Source: Puniceicoccales bacterium
GTDB taxonomy: Bacteria; Verrucomicrobiota; Verrucomicrobiia; Opitutales; UBA953
Assembly: GCA_031273045.1 (NCBI GenBank)
Contig: JAISSQ010000058.1
Location: forward strand, 1-36,096
Length of the DNA stretch: 36,096 nucleotides
Direction: 5' to 3'
Shown: piece by piece, positions 4,459-33,340 of the stretch
Position numbering within the stretch: position 1 is the stretch's first letter
How the letters are laid out: each line of letters begins with the position of its first letter
Program-made: the position numbers and the translations under genes
Notes under the pieces: model-generated
Databases searched by the model: none
Told to the model about the DNA's origin: nothing
The model's input: only the letters and a program-made list of their open reading frames with translations

Positions 4459-5089
4459 CGCCGGCGCGCCGGCGGTGGCGGTGCCGCTGACGCCGCCGCC
4501 GGTGCTCGTCGTGGGCTTTTCGGGAAAGCGCGAAATCCCCGACCCCGCGCGCGTCGCCGCCGGCATTGACGCCGCGCTCGAATGGATTTTGCGCGCCACC
4601 GGCAGTGCCGCCGGAGGTCGCCCGCTTGTCGCGCTTTCCGCCGTGGCGGAAGGCGCGGACACGCTTTTCGCCGAAGCCGTCCTCGCGCGCGGCATCCCGT
4701 GGCGCCTCATCCTCCCCTTCCCGCCGGCGGATTTCTTCGCCGCGTTCGCGTCACCGGCGGCGCGCGAACGCGCGGAAAAACTGGCGGCGCGCGCCGGCAG
4801 CATCGAGTTCCCCGAAACCGCGCCCGACGGACTGCCGGTGCGCCCGCTCGACCCCGACCCCGACGAAAAACGCTGCACCGACGCCGCCCACGCGCGCTGC
4901 GGCGTGCGCCTCGTGGACGCCGCCGACATGCTCGTCATCGTCACCGACGGTGCCCCCGCGCGCGGTCCCGGCGGCAGCAGTGAAATCCTGCAAAACGCCC
5001 GCGCGCGCGGAAAACCCTGCGTCGTCATCCACCGCGACACCGGCGAAATCGAATTCCCACCGACCACCGGCACTGACCACCGGCACTGA
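4430..5089 (+). CDS. SLOG-like Rossmann-fold protein, function unknown
   Basis: A 219-residue protein whose first strand VLVVGFSGKRE (residues 25-35) and the segment LSAVAEGADTLFAEAVLARG followed by LILPFPPADFF resemble SLOG/DprA-type nucleotide-binding Rossmann proteins. These typically start with a G-T/S-G-x-R loop and contain AEGAD and LPF motifs. A later strand, MLVIVTDGAPARGPGGSSE, fits the second nucleotide-contacting loop, and KPCVVIHRD the last strand. It overlaps the gamma-carbonic anhydrase gene, so translation may be coupled. The final residues (TTGTDHRH) lie in a tandem ACTGACC repeat, so the C-terminus has probably been altered by repeat expansion. The ligand is unknown; binding of a nucleotide or ADP-ribose derivative is inferred from the fold only. 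Confidence 0.65.
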   Translation: MPRTRQSSSDAGAPAVAVPLTPPPVLVVGFSGKREIPDPARVAAGIDAALEWILRATGSAAGGRPLVALSAVAEGADTLFAEAVLARGIPWRLILPFPPADFFAAFASPAARERAEKLAARAGSIEFPETAPDGLPVRPLDPDPDEKRCTDAAHARCGVRLVDAADMLVIVTDGAPARGPGGSSEILQNARARGKPCVVIHRDTGEIEFPPTTGTDHRH

Positions 5090-5109
5090 CCACTGACCAC
5101 TGACCACTG
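5061..5109. repeat. short tandem repeat (ACTGACC / CCACCGGCACTGA units)
   Basis: Two 13-base units containing CCGGCACTGACCA are followed by three 7-base ACTGACC units. The tract covers the end and stop codon of the SLOG-like gene and fills most of the gap to the convergent fabG stop at 5116. No terminator stem is evident between the two convergent genes. Confidence 0.75.
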
Positions 5110-8138: not shown

Positions 8139-8230
8139 GCAAAAAAACTTCTCGACGGGGTGGGGCGTGTCGCCGGCGGTGCCGGTGCCGGCGCCGGCGG
8201 CGCGCTTGTCGTCGGCGGGTGTTGCCGGTA
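8139..8230. repeat. CCGGCGG/CCGGTGC repeat cluster in the lipoprotein-argS divergent gap
   Basis: The 140-bp gap between the divergently read lipoprotein and argS genes contains about eight CCGGNG-type units, in alternating orientation. Promoters for both genes should be here, but I cannot pick convincing -35/-10 boxes. Confidence 0.55.
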
Positions 8231-8241
8231 GGGTTCTGGAC

Positions 8242-10125
8242 ATGGACATTTGGTTCAATCCTGTGCGTGAACTCGACGCGCTTCTGCGCGCCGTCGCGCC
8301 GGCGGCGGGCTTCGGCGACGAGCCGTTCGACCCGGAAATCCGCCCCGCAGACCCGCGCTTCGGCGACTTTCAGGCAAACGGCGTTCTCGCCCGCGCGAAG
8401 GCGTTGAAGAAAAATCCGCGCGCACTCGCCACCGCGCTCGTCGAGAATATCACTGCCGGCGGCGCGTTGGACGGGGCGTTTGTCGCCGTCGAAATCGCGG
8501 GACCGGGGTTTATCAATTTTCGTCTGACGCCGGCGTTCCTCGATGCGTGGCTGGCGCGCTACGCCGACGCCGACGCGTTCTCCGCCGGCGCCGCCGCACT
8601 CTACGCCGGCAGGCGCGTCGTGATTGACTATCCGTCGCCGAACACCGCGAAGCAAATGCACGTCGGGCACCTGCGCCCGATGGTCATCGGCGAGGCGATT
8701 GCGCGGCTGCTGCAGTTCTGCGGCGCCGACCTTATCCGCGACAACCACATCGGCGACTGGGGCACGAACTTCGGCGTCCTCATCTGGGCGATTAAAAACC
8801 TGCATACCGGCGGCACCGGTGCTGCCGGCACGCTCACGCTCGAAGCCCTCGAAGACCTCTACAAACGCGGCAGCGCGGCGACAAAGGCCGACCCCGCCGC
8901 GCTCGACGCCGCCCGCGCCGAACTCGTCAAACTCCAGACCGGCGACCCCGAAAACCTCGCGCTCTGGGAGCGCATCGTCGCCACCTCGAACAGCGCGTTT
9001 CAAGAGATGTATGACCTGCTCGGCGTCCACCCCGACGTGACGCTCGGCGAGTCGTTTTATCGCGACAAAGTCGGGCGCGTCTATGAGGAGTTGCTGCGCG
9101 ACGGGCTGGCGGAGGAGAGCGACGGCGCACTCGTCGTCTGGCACGACGAGCACCCGCGTTTCTCGCGCAACGCCGAGCCGTCGCAGCCCTTCATCGTCCG
9201 CAAAAAAGACGGCGGCTCCAACTACGCCGGCACCGACCTCGCCACGCTGCTCTACCGCGTCGAGCACTACCACGCGGACGAGTGCGTCTATGTCACCGAC
9301 GGCCGTCAGCAAGACCACTTCCAGCAACTTTTCCTGACCGCCGAAAAATGGTTCCGCGCCGAGAAACGCCCGCTGCCGGTGCTGCGCCACGTGTGGTTCG
9401 GAACGATTCTGGGCGAGGACGGCCGCGCGATTAAGACCAAGTCCGGCGACCCCGTGCGGTTGAAGACGCTGCTCGACGAGGCCGTCGAACGCGCCGCCGC
9501 GCTCACCGCCGAGAAGAACCCCGACCTGCCGGCGGCGGAGCGCGAGCACGTCGCGCGCACCGTCGGCATCGCCGCCGTCCGCTACGCCGACCTCTCTCAA
9601 AACCGCACACTCGACTACACGTTCTCGTGGAAAAAACTGCTCGCCTTCGACGGCAACACCGCGCCCTACCTGCTCTACGCCGTGGCGCGGATTCGGAGCA
9701 TTTTTAGAAAGGCAGGGGAGCAGGGCGCGGGGAGCGGGGAGCAGGAAGGAAGTGCCGGTGAAGAAGGGCAAAGGGATAAAGGCAAAGGGCAAAAGGCAGC
9801 CACCGGTGGTGCCGCCGATGCGGATTCTCTCCCCGCTCCCTGTTCCCCGTCCGCCTTGGAGACGCCGGCGGAACTCGCGCTTGCGCGGAAACTCGTCGCG
9901 TTTCCGGCGGCGTTGGCGCAGGCCTGCGAGGAACTGCGTCCGCATCACTTGTGCGCCTACCTCTTCGACCTCGCCGGTGCCTACAGCACCTTCAACAACG
10001 CCGACAAGGTGCTCGTTGACGACGCGCCCGTCCGCGCCCGCCGCCTGCGCCTGTGCGACCGCACCGCCACCGCACTCACCATCGGTCTGCGGCTGCTCGG
10101 CATTGAGCCGTTGGAGCGAATGTAA
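8242..10125 (+). CDS. argS: arginyl-tRNA synthetase with in-frame repeat insertion
   Basis: A 627-residue class Ia synthetase charging tRNA-Arg. The start MDIWFNPVRELDAL at 8242, with TAGGG before it, gives a normal N-terminal tRNA D-loop (Add) domain; the frame is open back to 8113 but that part is repeat-derived. The HIGH box is HVGH (140-143) in the ArgRS-specific context, followed by IRDNHIGDWGTNFG. A KTKSGDPVRLKTLLDEA segment replaces KMSK, as in many ArgRS. The anticodon-binding domain is split: after IFRKAGE, residues about 492-536 are a Gly/Glu/Lys-rich insert (EGQRDKGKGQ) from the composite repeat described separately, before the normal LETPAELALARKL and the C-terminal domain. The insert falls between helices, so the enzyme is probably functional. 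It is the only argS in the window. Confidence 0.95.
   Translation: MDIWFNPVRELDALLRAVAPAAGFGDEPFDPEIRPADPRFGDFQANGVLARAKALKKNPRALATALVENITAGGALDGAFVAVEIAGPGFINFRLTPAFLDAWLARYADADAFSAGAAALYAGRRVVIDYPSPNTAKQMHVGHLRPMVIGEAIARLLQFCGADLIRDNHIGDWGTNFGVLIWAIKNLHTGGTGAAGTLTLEALEDLYKRGSAATKADPAALDAARAELVKLQTGDPENLALWERIVATSNSAFQEMYDLLGVHPDVTLGESFYRDKVGRVYEELLRDGLAEESDGALVVWHDEHPRFSRNAEPSQPFIVRKKDGGSNYAGTDLATLLYRVEHYHADECVYVTDGRQQDHFQQLFLTAEKWFRAEKRPLPVLRHVWFGTILGEDGRAIKTKSGDPVRLKTLLDEAVERAAALTAEKNPDLPAAEREHVARTVGIAAVRYADLSQNRTLDYTFSWKKLLAFDGNTAPYLLYAVARIRSIFRKAGEQGAGSGEQEGSAGEEGQRDKGKGQKAATGGAADADSLPAPCSPSALETPAELALARKLVAFPAALAQACEELRPHHLCAYLFDLAGAYSTFNNADKVLVDDAPVRARRLRLCDRTATALTIGLRLLGIEPLERM
9715..9848 (+). 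repeat. composite intragenic repeat inside argS (copy A)
   Basis: An in-frame element. The left arm (9715-9732) is a G-rich 18-mer and the right arm (9831-9848) is its inverted repeat, matching at 16 of 18 positions. Between them lie a 34-bp purine core at 9763-9796, rich in GGCAAAGGG, and a CCACCGGTGG palindrome. Copy B in the HzsA-like gene (22712-22900) shares the left arm, the core (32 of 34) and the right-arm region (16 of 18) in the same order, orientation and reading frame. Confidence 0.85.
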
Positions 10126-19787: not shown

Positions 19788-20366
19788 CTACGCGCCGCCG
19801 CGCGAGCCGAAAACCGCCGCGCCGAGGTTGAGGTCAAAGTTCGTCCACGCCCAAGTGGAGTCGGGTTTGAGCGGTCCGCCGTGCAGTTTCAGCCCTTCGC
19901 TCCACTGGCGGCCGCCGGCGGGCTGGCGGACGACAAATTGTTTCGACGCGCTGCCGCCGCTACCGGCGGCGTCCTCCACGCGCAGGGTTTCGAGCGGCGC
20001 GAACGTGCAAAGCAGTTCGGTGTGGCGGCCGGTCTTGCCGTGAATGCGCAGCAGGCGGCTGAAAATCAGCGCACCGGTGGCGGTGTCCGCCGCCTCCTCC
20101 GCGAACTGCTCGAAGACGGGCATGCGCGCCGGCGCGCCCTCCGTGTTCGGCGGCAGTCCGGCGAGCGCGAGCAGGTCGTTCTCTTCGAGCACCCACGGCG
20201 CGGTCAGGTCGTTGACGGGGAGCGTCTGCGTGAAACGGGCAATCAGCCCCGCCGGTCCCGAAAGGCGCAGCGGCACCGGCGAGCAGAGCGTGAAAACTTT
20301 TTCCGCGAGTGCCGCCGCCGGTGCCGGTGAGCCGCCGCAGGAGCAGGAATAAATCTTGAAGGCCAT
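19788..20366 (-). CDS. hypothetical protein, unknown function
   Basis: A 192-residue protein with start MAFKIYSCSCGGSPAPAAAL at 20366; an extension to 20582 would run into the divergent gene and is low-complexity. Visible traits are an N-terminal CSC motif followed by Gly/Ser/Pro/Ala repeats, and a central globular part (TLPVNDLTAPWVLEENDLLALAG and FEQFAEEAADTATGALIFSR). It ends WTNFDLNLGAAVFGSRGGA, with several aromatic residues. It has no signal peptide and no membrane helix. I do not recognise a family. It is divergent from the HzsA-like gene (75 bp apart) and 80 bp upstream of the topoisomerase-repeat gene on the same strand, with which it may form an operon. Confidence 0.55.
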   Translation of the reverse strand: MAFKIYSCSCGGSPAPAAALAEKVFTLCSPVPLRLSGPAGLIARFTQTLPVNDLTAPWVLEENDLLALAGLPPNTEGAPARMPVFEQFAEEAADTATGALIFSRLLRIHGKTGRHTELLCTFAPLETLRVEDAAGSGGSASKQFVVRQPAGGRQWSEGLKLHGGPLKPDSTWAWTNFDLNLGAAVFGSRGGA

Positions 20367-20440
20367 TGCCCTCGTTGAAGCAAGAAATGTGCCGCCGGTG
20401 GTGCCACAAATGCGGCGGGGACGTGTCTGAACGGGGCGAG

Positions 20441-23359
20441 ATGAAGAATTTCGCGACGATGATTGGCGCCGCCGCGCTCGCGCTGGCGGCAGGGATTTCC
20501 ACGCCGGCGGCGATGAATGCGGCACCGGCGGCGAAGGCAAAGGCGGCACCGGCAACGGCGAAGGCGGTTCCACCGGCGGCACCGGTGGTGCCGGAGCCGG
20601 CGGAGAAATGCGTGGCGTTCGTCGCCGAGGTGCTGGGGCGCGAACTCGCGCCGGCGGAACGCGCTTCCGATGCGGCGTTGTGGGCGGCGCTCGAAGCGGG
20701 CGACGAGTTGCTCGCGGATTGGCTGCGGCAGGATTTGAAGTCGCCGTTCGGGAAGGCGTTGTTCGCCGACGGCGAGCCGTGGGTCGCGCTGGACGCGGCG
20801 CTTCGTTCCGCGAAGGCGCGGGGAGGCAGTGCGGCGGCGTCGCCGCAGGGGGCGAAAGGCGTCACCGGCGGCGCGACCACCACCGGCAGCGTCCGTTTTT
20901 GCGCGGAGCATTTGCCGTCGCTCGCCGAATACCGCGCTGTCTGCGCGAAGCGGCGCGCCGCGCGCATTGCCGATGTCGTCCGGCAGACGCCGCGCCTCGT
21001 CTATGCGCGGCACTTCGTGATGGGCGGTTCGCATTACGCTTACACGGAGGCGGTGACGGACGCGCAGTCCGAGCGCTACATCCGCGTCGGCGCGCGGCTG
21101 TGTCTCGCCGAGTTCGACGCCGCCGGTGGTCTCTGGCGCGAGACGGTGCTGCTCGACTCGCCGGAGGGAGTCATTCGCGACGTGGATGTTGATTTCGACG
21201 CGCGGCGCATTCTCTTCTCGTGGCGGAAGAGCAATCGCGGCGACGACTACCATCTCTACGAAATGCCCGTCTCCGCCGACGGTGTGCCGCAGCCCGCCGC
21301 GCTCCGCCAACTCACGTCCGAGCCGCGTGTCGCCGACTACGAGGGTTGCTACCTGCCCGACGGCTCAATCCTGTTCAACTCCACGCGCTGCCAGCAAATC
21401 GTGGACTGCTGGTGGACGGAGGTCTCGAACCTCTACCGGTGCGACGCCGACGGCGGCAACATCCTGCGCGTCTCTTTCGACCAAGTGCACGACAACTACC
21501 CGACCGTCTCGTGGGACAACCGCGTGCTCTACACGCGCTGGGAATACAACGACCGCTCCCAGATGTATCCGCAGCCGCTTTTCTCAATGGCGCCAGACGG
21601 CACGAACCAGACCGCCGTCTATGGCGAGAACTCGTGGTTCCCGACGACCATCGCGCACGCCCGCGCCGTGCCGAACTCGTCCGCGATTTTCGCCGTCGCC
21701 ACCGGTCACCACAGCGCGCAGCCCGGCGAACTCATCCTCATTGAGCCGAAGCGCGGGCGGCAGGAGACGAGCGGCGTCACGCGCGTCGCGCCGGTGCGTC
21801 CGCACGTCAAGCCCGACCCCATCATCATCGACCAATACGGACAGGGCGCGGAGTTGTTCGCCTACCCGTGGCCGCTCGACGAGCGGCAGTTGCTCGTCTC
21901 CCACAACCCGACGGGCTGGCGCGGCATCAAGAGTCAGGGGAACCCGGGCACCGGCGCCCACGCGCCGTTCGGCATCTATTGGTTCAACGTTGCCGGCGAG
22001 CGCGAATTGCTCGTGTCGCGCACCGGCGGCGTCGGCATCGGATGCGGACGCCCCGTTCCGCTCGCGCCGCGCCGGCGCCCGCCCGCCCGCCCGTCGTTCG
22101 TGGACTACGCGAAAGACCACGGCACGTTCAACATCGTGGACGTCTATCAGGGCGCGGCGATGCGCGGTGTCGAGCGCGGCACGGTGAAAACGTTGCGCGT
22201 CATCGGGCTGGATTTCCGCGTCGCCGGCATCGGCAGTAACCGCAACGGCGGCCGCGGCGGTCACGCGATGGTCTGCACACCCGTCGCCTGCAACAACGGC
22301 GCGTGGGACGTCAAAATCCCGCTCGGCGATGTGCCCGTGCACCCCGACGGCAGCGTGTTCTTCAAGGCACCGGCGCGCCGTCCGTTCTACTTTCAACTGC
22401 TCGATGAGCGCGGCCGCGTTGTCCAGACAATGCGCAGTTGGACAGTGCTCCAGCCCGGCGAGGACGCCTCGTGCGTCGGCTGCCACGAGAGCAAGGACAG
22501 TGCGCCGCCGCCGAGCGTCCGCCCGCCCAAGGCGATGCAAAGCGCACCGGCGACGCTTGCGAATTTTTGGCGCGCCGTCGGCCGCCCCGAAGTCGCTGCC
22601 GGCGCCGCCGCCGACCCCCGCACCACCAAGCGCGGCATCAGTTTCCCGCAGGACATCCAACCGATTTTGGACAAGCACTGCGTGGGCTGCCACGGGGGTG
22701 GTGTGGGGAGCGGGGAGCAGGGAGCGGGGAGTGGGGAGATAGTGCGAGGGAAAGAAGGGCAAAGGGATAAGGGCAAAGGGCAAAGGGTAGTCACCGGTGA
22801 CGTTGGCGAAGCGCAGCGGAGCCAGTCAGCGGCGGCACCGGCGGCACCGGTGGCGTCTTCGCCCGCACGCGGCGCAGCCACCGGATTATCGCCCCGCTCC
22901 ACAGACAATCCCGCCCCAGACCTCCGCGCTGTGCCGGCGCCCGACGGCGGCTCCAAGCGCGTCTGGCTGCGCTCTTACCTGAACCTCGTCCACAACGGAA
23001 ACGCCGGTCATCCGGTTCTGAATTGGATAAGTGCCGCCAGCGAGCCGACCATTCTTGCGCCGCGCAATGCCGGTGCCGCCCGCAGCAAACTCTTTGCCCT
23101 GCTCGACGCCAACCACGGTAAGACCCGCATCACCCGCGAGGAAATCGCCCTCCTCGCCGCATGGGTGGATATGGGCGTCCCCTTCTGCGGCGACTACACC
23201 GAAGCCGCCGCTTGGTCCGAGCGCGACCGCGCCAAGCACGACCATTACCAGCGCAAGCGCACTGCCGCCGACGCCGCCGACGCCGCCACTCTCGCCCGTC
23301 TCCGCGCCGCCTCATGGAGCGCCGGCTATCAAGACGGCCCGCCGGTGGTGCGGCGGTAG
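20441..23359 (+). CDS. HzsA-like secreted di-heme cytochrome c protein
   Basis: A 972-residue exported protein. The start MKNFATMIGAAALALAAGIS opens a signal peptide and follows CGGGGCG. The central part (about 180-560) is a beta-propeller-like region with WRKSNRGDDYHLYEMPV, DYEGCYLPDGSILFNSTRCQ and DNRVLYTRWEYNDRSQMYP, matching the hydrazine-synthase-alpha-related family common in Planctomycetes and Verrucomicrobia. Two heme c motifs are present, CVGCH at Cys678 and CVGCH at Cys747, the second in the IQPILDKHCVGCHGG context. Immediately after it lies the composite repeat (residues about 758-820), then the C-terminal domain. hzsB/C are not here, so hydrazine synthesis is not implied; periplasmic electron transfer or redox sensing is more likely. 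The last residues (WSAGYQDGPPVVRR) lie inside a repeat element. Confidence 0.8.
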   Translation: MKNFATMIGAAALALAAGISTPAAMNAAPAAKAKAAPATAKAVPPAAPVVPEPAEKCVAFVAEVLGRELAPAERASDAALWAALEAGDELLADWLRQDLKSPFGKALFADGEPWVALDAALRSAKARGGSAAASPQGAKGVTGGATTTGSVRFCAEHLPSLAEYRAVCAKRRAARIADVVRQTPRLVYARHFVMGGSHYAYTEAVTDAQSERYIRVGARLCLAEFDAAGGLWRETVLLDSPEGVIRDVDVDFDARRILFSWRKSNRGDDYHLYEMPVSADGVPQPAALRQLTSEPRVADYEGCYLPDGSILFNSTRCQQIVDCWWTEVSNLYRCDADGGNILRVSFDQVHDNYPTVSWDNRVLYTRWEYNDRSQMYPQPLFSMAPDGTNQTAVYGENSWFPTTIAHARAVPNSSAIFAVATGHHSAQPGELILIEPKRGRQETSGVTRVAPVRPHVKPDPIIIDQYGQGAELFAYPWPLDERQLLVSHNPTGWRGIKSQGNPGTGAHAPFGIYWFNVAGERELLVSRTGGVGIGCGRPVPLAPRRRPPARPSFVDYAKDHGTFNIVDVYQGAAMRGVERGTVKTLRVIGLDFRVAGIGSNRNGGRGGHAMVCTPVACNNGAWDVKIPLGDVPVHPDGSVFFKAPARRPFYFQLLDERGRVVQTMRSWTVLQPGEDASCVGCHESKDSAPPPSVRPPKAMQSAPATLANFWRAVGRPEVAAGAAADPRTTKRGISFPQDIQPILDKHCVGCHGGGVGSGEQGAGSGEIVRGKEGQRDKGKGQRVVTGDVGEAQRSQSAAAPAAPVASSPARGAATGLSPRSTDNPAPDLRAVPAPDGGSKRVWLRSYLNLVHNGNAGHPVLNWISAASEPTILAPRNAGAARSKLFALLDANHGKTRITREEIALLAAWVDMGVPFCGDYTEAAAWSERDRAKHDHYQRKRTAADAADAATLARLRAASWSAGYQDGPPVVRR
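22712..22900 (+). repeat. composite intragenic repeat inside the HzsA-like gene (copy B)
   Basis: Left arm GGGGAGCAGGGAGCGGGG at 22712-22729, 34-bp GGCAAAGGG-rich core at 22754-22787, and a right-arm region at 22883-22900 correspond in order, orientation and reading frame to copy A in argS. The middle part is about 70 bp longer than in argS, containing CCGGCGGCACCGGTGG units. It encodes EGQRDKGKGQ directly after the second heme motif. Confidence 0.85.
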
Positions 23360-23432
23360 CCGCCATTCTTTTTTAGAGAAGCAAGGCGGCTGCGCCGCAT
23401 CTCCCCCAAGCCGACTTGAAAGTCGGCGCTCC
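23316..23432. mobile_element. MITE-like element, copy 1
   Basis: A roughly 117-bp palindromic element. The left end lies in the last codons of the HzsA-like gene and resembles a GGAGCGCCGACTTTCAAG terminus with a few changes; the right end is the conserved AGCCGACTTGAAAGTCGGC followed by GCTCC. The centre is a hairpin: stem 23349-23364 with 23385-23399, with a 20-base loop holding TTTTTTAGAGA. The loop is 18 of 20 identical to the reverse complement of that in copy 2. It may also act as a terminator between the two convergent genes. Confidence 0.8.
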
Positions 23433-23454
23433 CAGTGCGGCGCTCCCAGTGCGG
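23427..23454. repeat. 14-bp direct tandem duplication
   Basis: CGCTCCCAGTGCGG occurs twice in a row, at 23427-23440 and 23441-23454, starting inside the right end of the MITE-like element. It looks like a duplication made by slippage or by the element's insertion. Confidence 0.85.
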
Positions 23455-23490
23455 CGTGTCCGGTGGCGGGGAGCGCGGTGGCGGGAGCGG

Positions 23491-33139: not shown

Positions 33140-33190
33140 GGCACCGGCGGCGGGGAAAGGCGGGTCAGGAGCGCGAGGAGCACCGCATAC

Positions 33191-33220
33191 ATGGAGCGCC
33201 GCACATGGAGCGCCACACAT
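33191..33220. repeat. tandem ACATGGAGCGCC units before MITE-like copy 2
   Basis: ATGGAGCGCC is repeated at 33191 and 33205, and again at 33219 where it begins the left end of the element, with a period of 14 bases. They look like repeated copies of the terminal bases of the element, comparable to the 14-bp duplication beside copy 1. Confidence 0.8.
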
Positions 33221-33340
33221 GGAGCGCCGACTTTCAAGTCGGCTCGGCGGTGTTGCGGCGATAGCCGCCTTGCGTCTCTAAAAAAGAGTGGCGGCTACCG
33301 CCGCACGGAGGGGGCGAGCCGACTTGAAAGTCGGCGCTCC
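33221..33340. mobile_element. MITE-like element, copy 2 (complete)
   Basis: A 120-bp element with perfect 24-bp terminal inverted repeats at 33221-33244 and 33317-33340; each contains the inner palindrome GCCGACTT-AAGTCGGC. The centre is a hairpin with 16-bp stems (33254-33269 with 33290-33305, one mismatch) and a 20-base loop holding TCTCTAAAAAAGAG. The central loop is inverted relative to copy 1. It contains no gene, so any transposition would need an enzyme in trans. It occupies the gap between the convergent SGNH and GH78 genes. Confidence 0.88.

Follow-up and report, generated by a model that had tools for sequence, protein, structure and literature searches.

A species-specific family of dispersed heptad repeats, one copy lying in frame in argS of a Puniceicoccales bacterium

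To our knowledge, most described cases of short repeats that invade essential genes in frame come from Rickettsia and Wolbachia, and no mobiliser is known. The Rickettsia palindromic elements (RPEs) are about 150 bp long, with 44 copies in R. conorii and in-frame insertions in 19 protein genes (PMC10969869; PMC2229807), and one RPE-bearing guanylate kinase is translated and active (PMC2229807). A second group of described repeats, the GGGNATC repeats of Xanthomonas and Nostoc, is heptameric, quadruplex-spaced and dispersed, and its members occur singly or as inverted pairs; those of xanthomonads comprise 2–26 units and are 89–93% intergenic (PMC4692102). Heptad repeats in general are abundant in scattered lineages (PMC4679880). 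For the Verrucomicrobiota, no description of such elements was found in the open-access literature.

The DNA analysed here (the window, 36,096 nucleotides) is one whole contig (C180) of a 3.12-Mb, 247-contig, 84% complete genome (G000). From its sequence, an initial annotation had reported an element of about 134 bp with inverted arms inside argS. Such an element is indeed present, with arms of 20 nt (9715–9734 and 9829–9848) that are 90% complementary and lie 94 nt apart. The whole segment, 9715–9848, is in frame, with GGGGAGC heptads on the left and AAGGGCA/AAGGGAT heptads in the core. The gene and the parts of its insert are as follows.

8206..10125, + strand: argS, the host gene, encoding arginyl-tRNA synthetase (ORF list; Pfam tRNA-synt_1d, DALR_1 and Arg_tRNA_synt_N)
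9716..9757, + strand: module A in the G-sense orientation, GGGAGC-type heptads with the end GGAAGGAAGTGC (sharp borders, tandem repeats)
9764..9798, + strand: module C, five AAGGGCA/AAGGGAT heptads, read as EGQRDKGKGQKA
9799..9828, no strand assigned: spacer with the palindrome CCACCGGTGG (sequence and comparison of composites)
9829..9848, - strand: degenerate right arm, an inverted A module (inverted repeat, 90% complementary)

The insert encodes the peptide stretch GEQGAGSGEQEGSAGEEGQR, and a peptide across its right border ends in SPSALETPAELALAR. Full copies have a second, inverted C module, which comparison with other composites shows to be absent from argS. The argS copy folds weakly as a hairpin (z -1.8); a full copy on contig C132 folds as a single hairpin of 197 nt (-127 kcal/mol, z -9.3). 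In a search of the 84% complete assembly, argS was found in one place only and every other match was a copy of the element.

Relatives carry the empty site. In the window's ArgS, 47 residues separate SIFRKA from LETPAEL, whereas in 109 other ArgS rows this gap is 11–17 residues in all but four, and 11–16 in the five congeners among them. The four longer loops (20, 20, 25 and 43 residues) do not resemble the element. These short loops rule out that the segment is ordinary conserved ArgS sequence carried by all orthologues, and the insert occupies a naturally variable loop. The longest of the four, in an Opitutia groundwater MAG (L138), is an expansion of the same loop by unrelated sequence, so this part of ArgS tolerates expansion. 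An AlphaFold model of the window's protein (mean pLDDT 86.8, pTM 0.87) places the insert, at roughly residues 504–550, between intact helices at 486–503 and 554–564, with pLDDT below 50 at residues 513–543; ArgS with its insert is thus predicted to keep an otherwise normal fold.

The window holds a second copy, in an unrelated gene.

20366..23359, + strand: HzsA-like gene (hydrazine synthase alpha domain type), the second host (ORF; Pfam match of its paralogue)
22706..22747, + strand: module A, G-sense, in a codon phase different from that in argS (SGEIVR)
22755..22789, + strand: module C, in the same reading frame as in argS
22796..22828, + strand: further repeat GGTGACGTTGGCGAAGCGCAGCGGAGCCAGTCA, also within the composite of a UvrA-like gene (G000:C159)
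22883..22900, - strand: degenerate inverted A module closing the composite (GGATTATCGCCCCGCTCC; 4 mismatches to the A landmark)

The paralogue of this gene on contig C65 gives the Pfam match HZS_alpha and carries module A after the same CHGG motif. Between the two copies in the window, 33 of 36 core bases are identical (9763–9798 and 22754–22789), and both proteins carry EGQRDKGKGQ, read in the same orientation, as had been claimed. Two further claims stand in part. A common reading frame is found for the core alone; the A arm is read as GEQEGSA in argS and as SGEIVR in the HzsA-like gene, because the spacing from A to C differs by one base. Similarly, the left arm recurs in the copy at 22705–22900, and the right arm there is merely degenerate (GGATTATCGCCCCGCTCC).

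The element is not confined to these two genes; dozens of further copies lie in the genome. The arm pattern has 8 matches in the window against 0.21 expected and 250 in the genome against 8 for a reversed control, and the core pattern has 34 against 1. In 440 kb of fetched stretches, chosen mostly around pattern matches and complemented by genome searches, there are at least 81 clusters with 28 nt or more of heptad array. An assembly or chance artefact is ruled out by the module borders that dozens of independent loci share and by reversed-pattern controls near zero. Across 59 aligned copies, module A is 40–42 nt long with sharp conservation borders and a nearly fixed number of heptads, its consensus being GGGAGC-(GGGGAGC)3-GGGGAGRWAGTGC(GG). 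Its arrays are mostly 35 nt, and the GGGGAGC heptads end in a non-repeated tail, RWAGTGC. Module C, of AAGGGCA/AAGGGAT heptads, is usually 35 nt. The two occur singly or as nested inverted pairs, A-C-C'-A', so that the ends of composites are inverted A modules; single A modules contain no palindrome and no terminal inverted repeat. Of nine measured A...A' composites, seven have lengths divisible by three (114, 180, 186, 189, 201, 210 and 210), the exceptions being argS with its degenerate right arm and a copy on contig C110. In sequence, the canonical quadruplex motif is matched by 56 of 66 A arrays and by 34 of 44 C arrays, with a spacing of GGGGN3 in module A and GGGN4 in module C, and elements hold 112 of the 158 quadruplex motifs in the sample. 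The window gave no Rfam match to a known RNA family.

Could these be ordinary simple-sequence heptads, quadruplex-forming like those of Xanthomonas and Nostoc, that slippage generated where they now stand and that are found in genes incidentally? Unit length, spacing of the G-runs and the single or inverted-pair layout all match the GGGNATC repeats (PMC4692102), and related GGGGAGC arrays of variable length occur in two genomes of the same family (G024 and G012). However, slippage would not produce an identical tail at unrelated loci, nor does it suit the fixed borders, the mostly 35-nt arrays or the joining of module A to module C and to loop sequences found again at many loci. The xanthomonad repeats are, moreover, largely intergenic (PMC4692102), whereas 78% of the clusters here with module A only lie in ORFs. 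We regard this origin as improbable.

Other repeats and insertions are present in the same genome. Short repeats with a period of 7 or 14 lie at 23424–23456, 33177–33229 and 5057–5109 of the window (CGGCGCTCCCAGTG; GGAGCGCCGCAACAT; CCACTGACCACCGG), and at positions 476–685 a large predicted ORF contains tandem repeats of 15 and 30 bases (CTACACGGTGCCGAC), which encode a T/P/V-rich peptide. The sequence AGCGCCGACTT occurs 37 times in the 440 kb; further dispersed families therefore exist. The LPD3 domain (PF18798, about 110 residues) was found inside UvrA-like, MetH and ValRS proteins, with seven matches in all, among them these loci:

G000:C124, 10513–10869: LPD3 match (L336)
C238, 5134–5490: LPD3 match (L339)
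C229, 4688–5002: LPD3 match (L345)

In the UvrA-like protein, the domain has a G-sense A module on one side and a P-sense one on the other, as though the two bounded an in-frame insertion of 290 residues, and an LPD3-like segment is also found in congener G003 (L337). LigA (G000:C132, L323) has 49 residues between REKLLEI and FAAKSADNL where all eight congeners have exactly two; this insertion contains SSCSGGVHAA, apparently from another repeat, and neither an A nor a C module.

To place the clusters relative to genes, a Markov coding model was trained on the fetched sequence, and each cluster was classified from the best frame of each of its two flanks. Counted in this way, the two flanks of 54 of the 81 clusters code in a common frame and the ORF is open throughout, and both orientations are represented. 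Of the 58 clusters whose two flanks code on the same strand, these 54 keep the frame, where one third would be expected (p 1e-21), and four have flanks in different frames; in none of the 81 was the frame kept despite a stop inside the cluster. Residence in ORFs depends on the module: 35 of 45 A-only clusters and 16 of 19 with A and C lie in ORFs, but only 3 of 17 C-only clusters do (A-only against C-only, p 2e-5). Since 77% of random sites in long stretches fall in ORFs by the same classifier, A-bearing clusters sit in ORFs as often as random sites, and C-only clusters are mostly intergenic. Identified by Pfam and conserved motifs, the hosts include ArgS, ValRS, LigA (with the element at two sites and an insertion of a different type at a third), LysA, NuoCD, MetH, two UvrA-like proteins, a MurC-MurB fusion that carries module A three times, other Mur ligases, a RimO-like methylthiotransferase, an HrpB-like helicase, a nitrogenase-type oxidoreductase and glycosidases. 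For ArgS, LigA and MurC-MurB, orthologues were identified in congeners. Within their hosts, the inserts are located in loops and domain linkers.

The arithmetic of the unit accounts for these open frames. Because seven leaves a remainder of one when divided by three, a shift of frame does not change the peptide read from a stop-free heptad array: for pure GGGGAGC it is GERGAGS in each of the three frames, and APRSPLP on the opposite strand. For this reason, A arrays are open in five to six frames. An AAGGGCA array similarly encodes KGKGQRA, and CPLPFAL on the other strand, but AAGGGAT places a stop in every frame once three units adjoin. On average, A-only clusters have 5.3 of six frames open, C-only clusters 5.0 in genes and 2.9 between genes, and the open-frame count tracks which module occurs in genes.

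The initial annotation had taken the open frame in an essential enzyme to imply that a tolerated peptide is selected or that some mechanism targets protein loops, and some observations do lean that way. The codon phase of insertion is biased, the inserts lie in loops and linkers, module A lies at one site, but in opposite orientations, in two paralogues (C87:3136 and C8:5196), and the two HzsA-like genes (C65:4590 and window 22705) also share a site. A further pair of paralogues, C181:11258 and C26:7124, likewise has module A at a common site. A shared site may reflect either a hot spot or an inversion after duplication. Neither process is required, however. With a period of one modulo three, frames stay open without peptide selection; A-only clusters reach ORFs at the random rate; and both orientations are found in genes (10 sense-G and 22 sense-P among the A-only clusters), which means that GERGAGS and APRSPLP, peptides unrelated to each other, are both tolerated. 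Residence in loops fares no better as evidence of targeting, as harmless insertions also survive there. We hold selection or loop targeting to be very improbable, and neutral survival of coding-compatible repeats explains gene residence better.

The family is species-specific among the genomes searched. This genome has 51 copies of the A landmark and eight congeners have none, while elsewhere in the order single one-mismatch matches occur in 5 of 372 other genomes, about the control level. From these counts, the A family appears to be a recent burst in this species. Arrays of other kinds were seen in relatives. A genome of the same order, G029, has AAGGGCT heptad arrays (56 matches, control 0), and the GGGGAGC/GGGGAGT arrays of G024 and G012 lack the A tail, have other borders and apparently lie mostly between or antisense to genes (19 loci, by inspection). 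The relatives of its ArgS place the organism among Opitutia, the nearest named record being that of the Puniceicoccales MAG Pc512_bin4; its ArgS loop and that of congener G004 are identical. A paper on termite gut symbionts (PMC11707648) uses the sample code Pc512 too, which makes a termite-gut habitat likely for the group.

Our preferred explanation, to which we give a probability of about 0.72, is a dispersed, species-specific heptad-repeat family that spread recently with little regard for genes and survives in frame near-neutrally. The argS element would be one copy of it. A stop-free array keeps an ORF open if its net length is divisible by three; gene-breaking copies would be lost, leaving the in-frame ones, and those in surface loops and linkers would stay, even in essential enzymes, as disordered low-complexity peptides in host proteins that presumably remain active. 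The process itself is probably mobile, and quadruplexes or hairpins may take part in it.

Several observations fit this explanation less well. No excess of matching flanks (k 4–9) indicative of target-site duplication was found at 59 A copies, and no Y1 (RAYT) transposase (PF01797) in this 84% complete assembly; together these leave the mobility without an agent. Mobilisation by RAYT was rejected on this ground; PF01797 transposases are present in congeners G003 and G006. A phage origin was rejected because a viral collection contains no exact core or A landmark, and a plasmid origin because the full copy has no plasmid match (BLAST with the low-complexity filter on). Nor does simple insertion describe the sites, since net gains over congeners are smaller than the element and the native loop seems partly lost: +34 in ArgS for about 45 residues inserted, +49 in LigA for 63, and +6, -1 and +8 at the MurC-MurB sites. 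Replacement of the native loop at the five sites compared, where loops vary in length among congeners, is suggestive. The codon phases of solo P-sense A modules, 15:9:0 (about 15:4:0 with intact landmarks), are not predicted by a neutral model, and stops do not explain them, as no frame of the P-sense strand has one; G-sense modules would share the corresponding phase, that following the first base of a codon, provided that the unit is 42 nt. Such a bias might arise from a target preference acting together with codon bias in a GC-rich genome. Finally, 80% of A-bearing clusters lie in ORFs against an estimated 57% or so if two thirds of genic insertions were lost, a difference that calls for an inserted length that is frame-neutral, or else for a preference for genes.

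A bolder reading may be entertained, tentatively: that the module is a recently active mobile quadruplex heptad unit of 42 nt (14 codons), open in nearly all six frames, which replaces short surface loops in essential enzymes and could insert itself into any gene, whichever way round, with the frame preserved. For the spreading step only, another possibility is that arrays which form quadruplexes or hairpins pass on copies by template switching or gene conversion, so that a short part of the target would be replaced and no transposase would do the inserting. This route agrees with the remainder of the preferred explanation and would suit the missing target duplication and RAYT, the partial loss of native loops, the nested inverted modules, the long near-perfect hairpins and the strong quadruplex pattern. 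Yet replacement is deduced from variable loops in congeners that are 60–80% identical, and fixed module borders suit a defined mobile unit equally well; we consider this route somewhat unlikely.

Comparison with known systems brings the dispersed heptad-repeat family closest to the RPEs, a likeness already proposed by the initial annotation and one that the wider survey upholds. As with RPEs and the protein-coding palindromes of Wolbachia, these are small repeats with inverted arms (about 100–150 bp in those systems), restricted to one lineage, dispersed and lying in frame in unrelated and essential genes. The long hairpin of RPEs is seen in a full copy, is weak in argS and has no counterpart in single A modules. 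Unlike RPEs, the present family is built of heptad arrays with quadruplex spacing and is modular (A of 40–42 nt; composites of 114–210 nt), GC-rich, coding in both orientations and found in the Verrucomicrobiota. The seven-base period and dispersed copies recall the GGGNATC repeats, the heptad STRRs of cyanobacteria and the TAACTGA repeats of Beggiatoaceae, and the seven-base unit with four or more G-runs that marks heptameric quadruplex repeats is found here as a sequence pattern. The non-coding excess of those repeats is seen in C-only clusters (3 of 17 in ORFs) but absent from A-only clusters (35 of 45), and module A differs further in its nearly fixed unit number and conserved non-repeat tail. 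Bacterial MITEs (Correia, ERIC, RU-2) and REP/RAYT systems are likewise small and non-autonomous, with inverted arms and some in-frame fusions (PMC2229807), but here neither target duplication at the 59 A copies nor a cognate transposase in the assembly was found, and single A modules lack terminal inverted repeats.

By analogy, the comparison supports the view that this Verrucomicrobiota family works like RPEs in its outcome, through a different DNA design. For annotation, it is a warning that low-complexity inserts in proteins of this genome are recent repeats and not domains. With the family absent from eight congeners, empty and filled sites are directly comparable. The design itself suggests a rule: where the period is not a multiple of three, the frames are equivalent, and a single stop-free unit would be coding-compatible everywhere, a rule that is open to test through the comparison of modules A and C.
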